Below, in pieces: positions 4,209 through 25,679 of a stretch of 64,000 bases of DNA. Both the position numbers and the translations under genes were made by a program. The notes beneath the pieces are model-generated. The model had not been told where the DNA came from. It did no database searches and saw only the letters and a list, made by a program, of their open reading frames with translations. Position 1 is the stretch's first letter; each line of letters begins with the position of its first letter. The stretch is from Alphaproteobacteria bacterium (GTDB lineage: Bacteria; Pseudomonadota; Alphaproteobacteria; Micavibrionales; Micavibrionaceae). The DNA lies in contig JAGRKA010000001.1 in the NCBI GenBank assembly GCA_020442475.1, forward strand, positions 1 through 64,000. Reading direction: 5' to 3'.

Positions 4209-5327
4209 TCAAGGCGTTTTATCGTTTTGCCTGTTTTTCTTTGCTTCAGGCCCGTTTGCCCACTCAGGTTGGCGGCCTTCTTTAGCACGGATATCACGAT
4301 ACCAGGCCAGATAATTATTCACACAGCGCTCTTTCGTAAATTCACCTTCGTAACGCTTCAGGCCGTTTTCCGCGATTTTTTTCATTAAGGCCGGGTCCGC
4401 GTTTAAGCGCCGAACAGCCTCCACGATGGCCTGTTCGTCATCAACGGGAACGAGCAGCCCGTCCTCTCCGTCACGGACGAATTGCCGGGGACCGTCGCAC
4501 GCGGAGGCGAGCAATGGCGTACCTTGCGCCCAAGCCTGTACGAATACCGTACCGAATCCTTCGTCCCGCGATATAAAGGTGCAGATATCGCAAGCCTGAA
4601 ACAGGGCTGTACGGTCGTTACGCCAGCCGAGCAGTTTAACACGGTCCTCAAGACCCAGAGCCGTGATCAGGGCTTCCAGCTCACCCCTCTTATTGCCCTC
4701 TCCGGCGATCCACAGATAAACGCCCTCAAGCTGTGATACCGCCTTGATCAGCGTATCAAAGGCCTTATCCCAGTGCAGCCGTCCCATACCCAGCAAAAGG
4801 AGCGCGTCCTCCGGTACGCCGTAATCGGCGCGGTTAATCGGCGTAAAATCCTTTTCGGTTTCGGCAAAATTATTGATCTGGCAGACATGGTCGGTCGCCA
4901 CCCCGTTTTCGATCAGATAGTCCTTAATATCCGGGGTGATCGCGACAAAATAATCCGTGTTTTTGAAATATTTAAGCTTGTAGGGTGTGCCCAGCCTTGA
5001 AACGGTCAGATAGCGTGGGATGCCCATCGAAGCGCTCCAGCGCGGCATCACCGAACTCGCACGGCTCATCCAGCCCTGAACGATGTCGGGCTGGAAATCA
5101 CGGATAATGCCGCGAATGCGGCGCGGTGTGGCCAGATCGAATTTGCCGCCAAAACGTAAAGAATGAACCTTGATCCCGGCTTTCTCGAGGCGGGGGACAC
5201 GAATATCGCTGGGACGGGTCACGGCCTCGACCGTATGCCCGGCCTCATGCAGGGCAATCGACATATCCACGAAGGCTGTCTCTGCGCCGCCATGGGCCGC
5301 CCCAGCCATAATTTGAAGAAGTCTCAT
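4209..5327 (-). CDS. Family 4 glycosyltransferase
   Basis: A 372-residue GT-B glycosyltransferase, likely acting in the cytoplasm on a lipid-linked or lipopolysaccharide sugar. The N-terminal domain has the Gly-rich GAAHGGAETAF acceptor-side loop; the C-terminal domain has LLGMGRLHWDKAFDTLI and the donor-binding block FISRDEGFGTVFVQAWAQGTP. In GT4 enzymes this block carries E-x7-E; here the second position is Gln (E-GFGTVFV-Q), a change from the canonical motif. Substrates cannot be predicted. It is flanked by tRNA-Ser and an unknown secreted protein, and is not in a visible polysaccharide operon, although a second GT4 gene lies at 16042. Confidence 0.85.
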   Translation of the reverse strand: MRLLQIMAGAAHGGAETAFVDMSIALHEAGHTVEAVTRPSDIRVPRLEKAGIKVHSLRFGGKFDLATPRRIRGIIRDFQPDIVQGWMSRASSVMPRWSASMGIPRYLTVSRLGTPYKLKYFKNTDYFVAITPDIKDYLIENGVATDHVCQINNFAETEKDFTPINRADYGVPEDALLLLGMGRLHWDKAFDTLIKAVSQLEGVYLWIAGEGNKRGELEALITALGLEDRVKLLGWRNDRTALFQACDICTFISRDEGFGTVFVQAWAQGTPLLASACDGPRQFVRDGEDGLLVPVDDEQAIVEAVRRLNADPALMKKIAENGLKRYEGEFTKERCVNNYLAWYRDIRAKEGRQPEWANGPEAKKNRQNDKTP

Positions 5328-23066: not shown

Positions 23067-23306
23067 TCATTCACCCGTACCAGATTCCAGCAAGCGCTGA
23101 ATCTTTAACAGAGTCTGCGCAACTTTCCAGTGCCCATCTATCATGTCTTCGATACAAGCATGAAGAAATCTACGTTCTTCCTCACTCATCTTTTTCTGTT
23201 CCTCCGAAATGAAAAGCCACCAGCCGGGTCGGGCTGGTGGCCGGGAGTTAAGAAATCGCTGTAACACGATCGCGACGATCTTTGGCCGCGAGGCTTGGAC
23301 ATACAT
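23067..23306 (-). CDS. Small ORF (79 aa, or 40 aa from an internal start)
   Basis: Unrecognised. From the ATG at 23306 (GGGAGG four to five bases upstream) it encodes 79 residues. From the ATG at 23189 (GGAGGA about ten bases upstream) it gives a 40-residue helical, charged protein, MSEEERRFLHACIEDMIDGH onward, which looks more natural. The first 39 codons run through a 10-bp hairpin (23216-23241) and other inverted repeats, and encode the odd stretch RPPARPGWWLF with tandem Trp. They may therefore be a leader peptide fused in frame rather than part of the mature protein. It lies 180 bases downstream of rsh in the same direction. Two starts with good sites suggest a regulated arrangement, but that is inference. 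Confidence 0.5.
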   Translation of the reverse strand: MYVQASRPKIVAIVLQRFLNSRPPARPGWWLFISEEQKKMSEEERRFLHACIEDMIDGHWKVAQTLLKIQRLLESGTGE

Positions 23307-23398
23307 CGCCGCCTCCCGGACATAAACCGAGAAGCGACGTGCTGACGGACACGCCACCGGTTACAGCAAGGTTCTTAAGCCTCGACCGGAAAGCACGT
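23216..23398 (-). ncRNA. Structured leader with interleaved inverted repeats
   Basis: Between rsh and the small ORF lie one 10-bp hairpin (23216-23225 with 23232-23241, six-base loop) and four further perfect inverted repeats: 23241-23247 with 23313-23319 (7 bp), 23258-23265 with 23360-23367 (8 bp), 23289-23296 with 23377-23384 (8 bp), and 23337-23343 with 23392-23398 (7 bp). Most of the long pairs cross one another, so they can form only as pseudoknots or as alternatives. Read leftward, the 10-bp hairpin is followed by CTTTTCATTT and then the GGAGGA ribosome site. It suggests a regulatory RNA or leader; no known riboswitch class was recognised. Confidence 0.4.
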
Positions 23399-23489
23399 AT
23401 CCGGTGTGTACAGCTATAACAGATATACCGGGATTTGGGAAGAAAAGGCCCAGAGTCTTAGGCTCATAAACGATCAACTGTGAAAACGG

Positions 23490-25679
23490 TTAACTACCGC
23501 CGCGGGCCCGGTCCACGGACGTAACCGAGGGCGTGGCGCGCAGGGCTGCTATAATATGGTTCAAATGCCGCGTATCGTTCACGTAAATATCCATCAGAAT
23601 TTCCCAGAAATCAACGGAGCGGTTTGTGAGTTTGAGGTTTGTAATATTGCCGCCGTTGGCGCCGATCACGGTCGAGAGCGTCCCCAGCGCGCCCGGCTCA
23701 TTCTGGATGATGACGTGAATCCGTCCGACATGGGCTTCCGGTGAGTCCGGGCCTTCGCCCCATGACACGTCCAGCCAGCGCTCCGGCGTATCGGCGAAGG
23801 TTTCCAGCGTGTCACAATCGATCGTGTGGATACTCACCCCTTTGCCGGTAATGACGATCCCAACGATCCGGTCGCCCGGTAGAGGGTGACAGCAGCGCGC
23901 AAAATGCACGGCCATGCCGGGAATAAGGCCCTTAATCGGAACCGGCGCATCTCGCCCGTCCAAAGGCTTGACCATGACGGCCTGATCCATATCGCGGGAG
24001 GGGCGTTTGACCATCTCCGTCTTGTGCGCCGGGAAAATCGCCTTGAATACGTCCCGTGCGGGCGTCAGCCCCGATCCGATCCGAGCGTAGAGATCGTCAT
24101 TTTCCTCAAGCTGGAACTGTTTGAGCACCCCGGTTACGGCTTTTTCCGTGAAATCGTAATGTTCCTGCCGGAAAATCTTTTGCAGCATCGCCCGGCCCAA
24201 AGTCGCATATTCGTCACGCTGCTGCGCCCGGATGAATTTGCGGATATGAGAACGCGCCTTGCCTGTGACGACGAAGCGCTCCCATGTCGGGGACGGGTTT
24301 TGCGTTTTGGACGTGATAATCTCGACCTGATCACCGTTCGACAGCTTGGTGTTAAGCGGCGCGATTGAGCCGTTGATCTTTGCACCAACGCACTTATCAC
24401 CAATATCAGAGTGAATGGCATAGGCGAAATCCACAGGCGTTGCCCCGCTGGGCAGTTCAATCAAGTCGCCTTTGGGTGAAAAGGCGAACACATGATCCTG
24501 AAACAGCTCCAGCTTCGTATTTTCCCAAAAATCCTCCGGGCGCTGCTCCTGTTCAAGAATTTCAAGCAATTCGCGCAGCCAGCGGTATTTTTTTACGTCT
24601 TTTAGGCTGGGAACCTTGCCTTCCTTATAGGCCCAGTGCGCAGCAACCCCCAGCTCAGCCTGCGAATGCTGTTCGTGCGTCCGGATCTGGACCTCAATCC
24701 GGTGGCGGGCGGGCCCCATCACAGTCGTATGGATTGAGCGATATCCGTTCGGCTTGGGGGTGGAAATATAGTCTTTAAAACGGCCTGGAATGCTGTGATA
24801 GCGCCCGTGGATCAACCCTAAAACGGTGTAGCAATCCTCAATACTGTCCACGACGATCCGGAACGCCATAATGTCGGAAAGCTGTTCGAAGGCAACGTTT
24901 TTGCGCTGCATCTTCTTCCAGATGGAATAGCCTGTTTTCTCCCGGCCCGTGATCTCAGCCTTTATCCCTGAGGTTTCAAGTAAAGCCGCCAGCTCGTTAA
25001 TGATGGTTTCAACGACGCCAGAGCCTTCCTTGCGCAGGAAAGACAAGCGGTTTGAGATACTTTCCCGCGCTTCAGGATTAAGAACCCCAAAAGCGAGATC
25101 TTCCAGCTCGGTCTTGATCGTGTGAACCCCGACCCGCTCCGCCAATGGCACATAGATTTCGAGCGTTTCCAGTGCAATCCGCTGGCGCTTTTCGGGCTTT
25201 TTGATCGCATCCAGCGTCCGCATGTTATGCAGCCGGTCCGCAAGCTTCACCAGCAGGACGCGGATATCTTCGGACATGGCTAGCAAGAGTTTCCGGAAAT
25301 TTTCAGCCTGCTTGCCTTCGACCGTCTGGCTTTCGATCCGCGTCAGCTTACTGACCCCGTTGACGAGATCGGCTACATCTTTTCCGAATTTATTTTTTAG
25401 ATCGTCATAGCTGGCCGCCGTGTCTTCCAGCGTATCGTGCAAAATGGCCGTGATCAGCGTGCCGGTATCCATCTTCATACCGGCCAGAATCTGGGCGACC
25501 TCGAGCGGATGGGTGTAGTAGGGTTCACCGGAGGCCCGTACTTGCCCCTCATGCATCTTTTTGGCGTACTCATAAGCTGCCGTGATCTCTCCGGCTTTCA
25601 CATCCGGGTTATAGGCTTTCACCTTGGCGATCAACGCCTCCGGTGCGGCAGTCATGGTCTGTGTTTCAAGCTCGGGCAT
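23490..25679 (-). CDS. Bifunctional (p)ppGpp synthetase/hydrolase (Rel/Spo)
   Basis: The single Rsh-type enzyme of most alphaproteobacteria, controlling the stringent response by making and degrading (p)ppGpp. The 729 residues carry, in order: an HD hydrolase domain with ILHDTLEDTAAS (HDxxED) near residue 80 and RLHNMRTLDA; a synthetase domain with SDIMAFRIVVDS and FKDYISTPKPNGYRSIHTTV; a TGS domain (HVFAFSPKGDLIELPSGATP); and a C-terminal ACT domain (HVIIQNEPGALGTLSTVIGA). Because the hydrolase motif is intact it should be bifunctional. It lies downstream of rpoZ, as in many proteobacteria, but is separated from it by a terminator. Confidence 0.95.
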   Translation of the reverse strand: MPELETQTMTAAPEALIAKVKAYNPDVKAGEITAAYEYAKKMHEGQVRASGEPYYTHPLEVAQILAGMKMDTGTLITAILHDTLEDTAASYDDLKNKFGKDVADLVNGVSKLTRIESQTVEGKQAENFRKLLLAMSEDIRVLLVKLADRLHNMRTLDAIKKPEKRQRIALETLEIYVPLAERVGVHTIKTELEDLAFGVLNPEARESISNRLSFLRKEGSGVVETIINELAALLETSGIKAEITGREKTGYSIWKKMQRKNVAFEQLSDIMAFRIVVDSIEDCYTVLGLIHGRYHSIPGRFKDYISTPKPNGYRSIHTTVMGPARHRIEVQIRTHEQHSQAELGVAAHWAYKEGKVPSLKDVKKYRWLRELLEILEQEQRPEDFWENTKLELFQDHVFAFSPKGDLIELPSGATPVDFAYAIHSDIGDKCVGAKINGSIAPLNTKLSNGDQVEIITSKTQNPSPTWERFVVTGKARSHIRKFIRAQQRDEYATLGRAMLQKIFRQEHYDFTEKAVTGVLKQFQLEENDDLYARIGSGLTPARDVFKAIFPAHKTEMVKRPSRDMDQAVMVKPLDGRDAPVPIKGLIPGMAVHFARCCHPLPGDRIVGIVITGKGVSIHTIDCDTLETFADTPERWLDVSWGEGPDSPEAHVGRIHVIIQNEPGALGTLSTVIGANGGNITNLKLTNRSVDFWEILMDIYVNDTRHLNHIIAALRATPSVTSVDRARGGS

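Follow-up and report, generated by a model that had tools for sequence, protein, structure and literature searches.

A pseudoknotted multicopy RNA behind rsh, very probably homologous to sRNA-Xcc1 and laid out in part like the C4 antisense RNA of phages

In phages P1 and P7, the C4 antisense RNA (RF01695, with c4-a1b1 as RF03163) controls icd-ant. A single transcript carries a1, b1, an RNA that contains segments a and b and an acceptor-like stem, and then a small gene; the order annotated in the P1 record is a1, b1, C4, a2, b2, icd. RNase P cleavage at the acceptor-like stem generates the 5′ end of C4, and RCCA after such a stem is a hallmark of RNase P substrates. The a2 and b2 segments surround the Shine-Dalgarno sequence (SD), and no terminator lies there. 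Type III toxin-antitoxin systems of the ToxIN type also place an RNA, a terminator and an ORF on one transcript. By covariance model, sRNA-Xcc1 (RF02221) and C4 are different families, and the one paper found to name both lists them as separate annotations. SymE_toxin proteins occur behind sRNA-Xcc1 RNAs (PMC12444791; seen here as well), and the RNA is called trans-acting in the title of Chen et al. (2011), as cited in PMC12444791. Literature searches for small RNAs of Micavibrio found none.

The locus compared here with these systems lies in a stretch of 64,000 nucleotides (the window), between rsh and a gene for a phosphoribosyltransferase-like protein. The RNA element is predicted on the minus strand (about 23405-23212), in the order rsh, element, small ORF: rsh ends on this strand at 23490, and promoter-like sequence, repeats, terminator, SD and a 40-codon ORF follow. 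The parts, all on the minus strand, are:

23414-23441, minus: candidate promoter, a consensus match only, with a -35-like TTCCCA (23441-23436), a 16-nt spacer and a -10-like TTATAG (23419-23414)
23385-23405, minus: hairpin P0, ACCGGA...TCCGGT, at the presumed 5′ end
23367-23384, minus: hairpin P1, stem CGAGG/CCTTG with loop cTTAAGAA, which holds a1 (23378-23372); both sides changed in 5 of 5 pairs
23360-23367, minus: strand b1, GCTGTAAC, pairing with b (23265-23258)
23336-23359, minus: second pseudoknot, a hairpin CGG...CCG whose loop GGCGTG pairs with CACGTC
23241-23319, minus: sRNA-Xcc1-like core, closed by P_A (CCGGGAG/CTCCCGG)
23312-23305/23279-23272 (P_B), 23294-23285 (P_C) and the hairpin P_D with b as its loop, minus: helices of the core
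23248-23254, minus: strand a, TTCTTAA, pairing with the a1 loop TTAAGAA (23378-23372)
23235-23240, minus: CCACCA, an RCCA directly after the 3′ strand of P_A, as in RNase P substrates
23212-23241, minus: intrinsic terminator, GCCACCAGCC CGACCC GGCTGGTGGC TTTT, read directly from the sequence
23201-23206, minus: SD of the small ORF, CGGAGG, read directly from the sequence
23067-23189, minus: 40-codon ORF, MSEEERRFLHACIEDMIDGHWKVAQTLLKIQRLLESGTGE, with three paralogues in the genome, each behind its own copy of the RNA

A sequence-only reading had noticed the region by its inverted repeats, all of which are present: 23216-23225/23232-23241 (10 bp), 23241-23247/23313-23319 (7 bp), 23258-23265/23360-23367 (8 bp), 23289-23296/23377-23384 (8 bp) and 23337-23343/23392-23398 (7 bp). 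Their excess over chance is confirmed: at least six perfect repeats of at least 7 bp arise in 0 of 2000 mononucleotide shuffles of the 185 bases (mean 0.83), and three repeats of at least 8 bp have P = 0.001 in these shuffles. The 10-bp hairpin is real, but its role as the intrinsic terminator on the minus strand had been missed, as had an important pair, 23248-23254/23372-23378 (TTCTTAA/TTAAGAA). Four pairs had been described as crossing. Conservation and covariation support two of them, 23241/23319 (P_A) and 23258/23367 (b1:b), whereas 23289/23384 is no better than chance (82.2% of alignment cells paired vs. 81.5% in column shuffles). The fourth, 23337/23398, is apparently also a chance pair, a judgement that comes from the outer arm (23392-23398), which lies upstream of P1 where the sequence differs among copies, and not from a count of its pairs.

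The covariation test proposed in that reading was carried out, and the RNA passed it. The structure put forward here comprises 47 pairs in eight helices, and in an alignment of 30 sequences, which are copies related by descent, 95.9% of cells are paired against 80.2% in shuffles, double-change cells number 239 against 70, and the covariation score is 0.501 against 0.202 (0 of 500 shuffles as high). Pairing falls to 35-45% when the partner is slid by 1-3 columns, a control that somewhat favours the structure because it was first read from the same sequences. A mismatched-copy control is less exposed to reuse of the structure and to shared descent: among 89 window-type and 26 sRNA-Xcc1-type sequences, about 90% show complementary a1:a and b1:b when both segments come from one copy, and complementarity is far lower when segments of different copies are combined. 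These two helices thus combine hypervariable sequence with almost constant pairing.

Individual helices behave similarly. For b1:b, double changes occur in 7 of 7 pairs with 92% of cells paired; for the loop helix of the second pseudoknot, in 5 of 6 pairs with 93% paired; and for a1:a, in 3 pairs (42 cells) with 99% paired. The core helices are paired in 100% (P_A), 99% (P_B), 94% (P_C) and 93% (P_D) of cells, with compensatory changes. A strong hairpin of variable sequence occupies the P0 position in 77% of relatives, compared with 6% of shuffles, and the motif GYATGTCCA...AAAG is nearly invariant in window-type copies. At the two ends, TANNNT motifs cluster 30-37 nt upstream of P1 in 66 relatives, the candidate promoter sequence is kept among the genome's own copies, and most relatives have at the terminator position a stem, different in sequence from one to the next, with T-runs behind it. 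An alternative hairpin P3 (TTCTCGG/CCGGGAG) in place of P_A gains no support over P_A (90.4% of cells paired vs. 89.4% in shuffles), and a conserved leader peptide from GGGAGGCGGCGATG was dropped by inspection, since the reading frames differ among copies.

The tangled repeats are thus identified by covariation as a real pseudoknotted RNA, predicted on the minus strand, conserved and multicopy. That the repeats are mere chance has practically no probability left; one pair of the original reading is unsupported by relatives and a second is apparently unconserved, but the covariation refutes this explanation, as do the repeat shuffles and the wide occurrence of the RNA described below. The earlier choice between a pseudoknot and alternative helices, forming a regulatory leader between rsh and a small ORF, holds in that the RNA is pseudoknotted and probably regulatory; its strand, terminator, multicopy nature and family had not been noticed.

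The unit of RNA and small ORF (about 330 bases) recurs at two further sites of the same genome with 77-78% identity, and a partial copy stands at a fourth. A covariance model built here, R1, gives five matches in this genome; three are strong, the other two weak, and one lies at a contig end. By blastn, 22 of 58 genomes contain the RNA, including the genome of the window. Within the order, R1 detects it in 101 of 142 genomes, or in 79 of the 98 that are of good quality, and each positive genome holds one to nine copies. When the best-conserved segment is turned into a degenerate pattern and searched in one genome per species, 94 stretches are returned; about a dozen appear to be chance matches that lack the fold. 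The remaining copies come from Alphaproteobacteria (including many Micavibrio assemblies), Gammaproteobacteria, Verrucomicrobia, Magnetococcales and one Nitrospiria assembly, the names being assembly labels as deposited. The partial copy in the window's genome (contig C52, 14085-14246; L004/L177) keeps the 5′ half and diverges just after GGAGGCGGCGATG, from where an open frame runs on; it is either a decayed copy or a gene that takes the GGAGGCGGCGATG segment as its SD.

At the curated (gathering) thresholds of Rfam 15, only tRNAs and no known riboswitch class are found in the window, and to that extent the earlier statement that no known class could be recognised stands. Below threshold it does not: RF02221 matches at full length (23321-23231, 33.6 bits; the paralogues score 36.6 and 39.8, the cut-off of 53 not being reached) and is the only sub-threshold Rfam match at the site. 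All three full copies align to positions 1-87 of the model (E 0.00035 to 0.01 in 13 kb) and contain the three-helix core of sRNA-Xcc1 at full length and in the same order, with covarying helices. In the reciprocal direction, R1 finds many sRNA-Xcc1 loci (E 1e-8 to 1e-2). Judged from these model matches, the core of the window RNA is homologous to sRNA-Xcc1, below the Rfam cut-off. Some matches cover only the core, with no recognisable window-type 5′ domain, namely L046 at about 4250-4330 (Pseudaminobacter) and L146 at 1501-1590 (an sRNA-Xcc1 locus from the window's class).

A search with RF02221 of 398 genomes of the phylum gives 58 positives, 39 of them above the cut-off. Most of these loci start with a 5′ domain like that of the window RNA, a hairpin with an a1 loop followed by b1 (complementary to a and b), and both types are often multicopy and mobile. 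At the sRNA-Xcc1 loci (L130-L159; e.g., L159, 1400-1640), sequence resembling a1 and b1 is repeated around the SD of the next gene (a2/b2), a layout of which no statement was found in the accessible literature. A 6-mer of a1 occurs in 10 of 21 such leaders and one of b1 in 9 of 21. In 20 non-redundant loci, the antisense segment pairs with its own leader at a mean of -18.7 kcal/mol, as against -12.4 kcal/mol with other leaders (own-partner test, z = -9.5, 0 of 5000 permutations). The genes behind encode Bro-N, KilA-N, P22_AR_N, Phage_pRha and SymE proteins, and examples of such loci come from a Rac-like prophage of E. coli, a further E. coli phage and a phage of Vibrio. Because P1 has the same order of a1/b1, RNA and a2/b2, and the 5′ domain of its C4 looks like that of the sRNA-Xcc1 loci, sRNA-Xcc1 appears, from this comparison, to work like C4. 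The shared layout would link two families that Rfam holds apart, and the direct target predicted for many sRNA-Xcc1 RNAs is the gene behind, while current papers seek targets elsewhere by trans-target prediction.

The window type shares with sRNA-Xcc1 the fold and length of the core (P_A, P_B, hairpin P_D). In contrast to sRNA-Xcc1, it has a second pseudoknot, an intrinsic terminator and RCCA after P_A, lacks a2/b2 at the SD, and is chromosomal, standing before accessory genes rather than before antirepressors or SymE. Its relation to C4 is similarly mixed. Like C4, it has upstream segments complementary to a and b (TTAAGAA/TTCTTAA and GCTGTAAC/GTTACAGC in the window; about 90% of 89 copies), with the acceptor-like stem and the small gene behind on the predicted transcript, and RCCA directly follows P_A in 82 of 89 relatives, compared with 7% at random positions. 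Unlike in C4, a2/b2 around the SD are absent in the window and at background level in window-type leaders (3 of 81 and 1 of 81), an intrinsic terminator occupies the place where a2 would be expected, and the gene behind is not icd-ant. The locus is also no phage immunity region with an antirepressor, its neighbours being rsh, the phosphoribosyltransferase-like gene and a 40-residue ORF of no known family. The C4 model RF01695 gives no match in the window's copies at E up to 5, whereas the same tool scores C4 of P1 at 68.8 bits. From its predicted parts, the window RNA can be described as a chromosomal variant with a terminator, in which a1/b1 and the RNase P-like acceptor stem with RCCA are retained and a2/b2 are missing. 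Very probably it is a pseudoknotted multicopy RNA homologous to sRNA-Xcc1, with the a1/b1 layout of C4 and a linked gene.

The linked ORF is a real gene, since the differences among its three copies concentrate in third codon positions (7/3/19, 6/4/18 and 8/5/19 by codon position). The 40-residue protein has no Pfam match, and 57 other genomes give weak, unconvincing matches and no clear homologue of it. Genes behind window-type RNAs are mutually unrelated and include HNH, GIY-YIG, Mrr-type and NERD-like nucleases, an HTH regulator, zinc ribbons and many lipoprotein-like ORFs. This diversity bears on whether the RNA restrains a toxic 40-residue protein in a toxin-antitoxin-like pair. The arrangement of RNA, terminator and ORF resembles that of type III systems, and SymE_toxin proteins do stand behind sRNA-Xcc1 RNAs (PMC12444791), but the window type has no tandem RNA repeats, its ORFs include lipoproteins and enzymes, and no toxin family is found downstream, the 40-residue protein belonging to no known family. 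Such a pair is very unlikely.

An SD and ORF start lie 35-66 nt after P_A in 83% of window-type copies, compared with 4.4% at random positions. As they come directly after the terminator, the ORF very probably depends on read-through. The same figures weigh against an independent small RNA that represses other mRNAs in trans through a, b or CUCCC, with the ORF a mere neighbour, because little room is left for another promoter. A scan of the genome for further places where a1 and b1 stand in target order also weighs against it: apart from the RNA itself it gives a single match, at chance level, that does not fall on the start codon of a gene on that strand. Regulation in trans nevertheless has points in its favour: the RNA has its own promoter-like sequence and terminator, window-type leaders lack a2/b2 while CUCCC is a generic anti-SD, and sRNA-Xcc1 carries the term trans-acting in the title cited in PMC12444791 (Chen et al., 2011). 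It is regarded as unlikely. Still less probable is a riboswitch-like attenuator, in which the pseudoknotted 5′ part would sense a ligand or condition and control read-through. The recurrence of pseudoknotted leader, terminator, SD and ORF in about 80 copies, with the nearly invariant motif, would suit it, but the downstream genes (lipoproteins, nucleases, regulators) are unrelated, unlike those of a metabolite riboswitch, no anti-terminator evidently competes with the terminator, and the RNA is homologous to sRNA-Xcc1 loci with an antisense layout.

On balance, the region is probably a C4/sRNA-Xcc1-like antisense RNA leader that would hold a downstream accessory gene at a low, conditional level. 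Because window-type leaders lack a2/b2, the established C4 repression step is not simply transferable, and the route proposed instead, through RNase P processing, attenuation and SD masking, is tentative. The predicted transcript would run from its own promoter-like sequence through P0, the a1 loop, b1, the core with a and b, the acceptor-like stem with RCCA, the terminator and the SD to the small gene. RNase P may trim the 5′ domain, as in C4, and a and b would pair with the RNA's own 5′ domain and not with a second target at the SD. Most transcripts would stop at the intrinsic terminator, the downstream gene would be made only from those that read through, and on these the SD could be masked by CUCC(C) of the P_A 3′ strand. 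Together, these steps would keep the accessory gene low and conditional, and most likely the window RNA does hold that gene down.

Two signals at group level, weak but significant, suggest a modest effect of SD masking by CUCCC in the P_A 3′ strand. GGGAG is over-represented among the GGAG-type SDs of window-type leaders (35 of 62 vs. 22 of 82, p = 0.0005), and in window-type copies a plus the P_A 3′ strand fits its own leader better than others (z = -6; z = 4.7 by longest helix). The copy in the window itself matches CUCCC to its leader only as GGAG/CUCC, and its duplex ranks 31 of 65.

A wider reading is possible, if more loosely held. A phage-type antisense immunity RNA may have become a general leader, present in one to nine copies per genome across the order that includes Micavibrio, ahead of accessory genes of unrelated kinds (nucleases, lipoproteins, regulators) that it would gate by terminator read-through and SD masking after loss of a2/b2; in the same reading, sRNA-Xcc1 is an antisense RNA of the C4 type whose target is the gene that immediately follows it, for SymE, Rha or an antirepressor. 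A bacterial lineage seems to have adopted a phage-like silencing RNA in many copies, each before a different accessory gene. A C4-like RNA is seen here outside phage immunity regions, multiplied before many unrelated bacterial genes, its pairing segments hypervariable yet almost always complementary, and the spread of such leaders and the silencing of new genes become directly testable.

Nucleases or nuclease-like proteins stand behind many window-type RNAs (L008, L009, L015, L020, L038, L061, L066, L085, L102, L109) and could be defence genes. The window RNA as query has no match in plasmid and phage collections; a window-type copy is present on one IMG/VR viral contig (L129, 42-75), as would fit transfer by mobile elements. 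The chromosome CP066681, labelled Micavibrio aeruginosavorus, carries two tandem copies (L090, 3713 and 3991) 278 bases apart that differ in their a and b segments, and one of them combines a P_A strand CACCC with a leader AGGTGG, a possible compensatory change.
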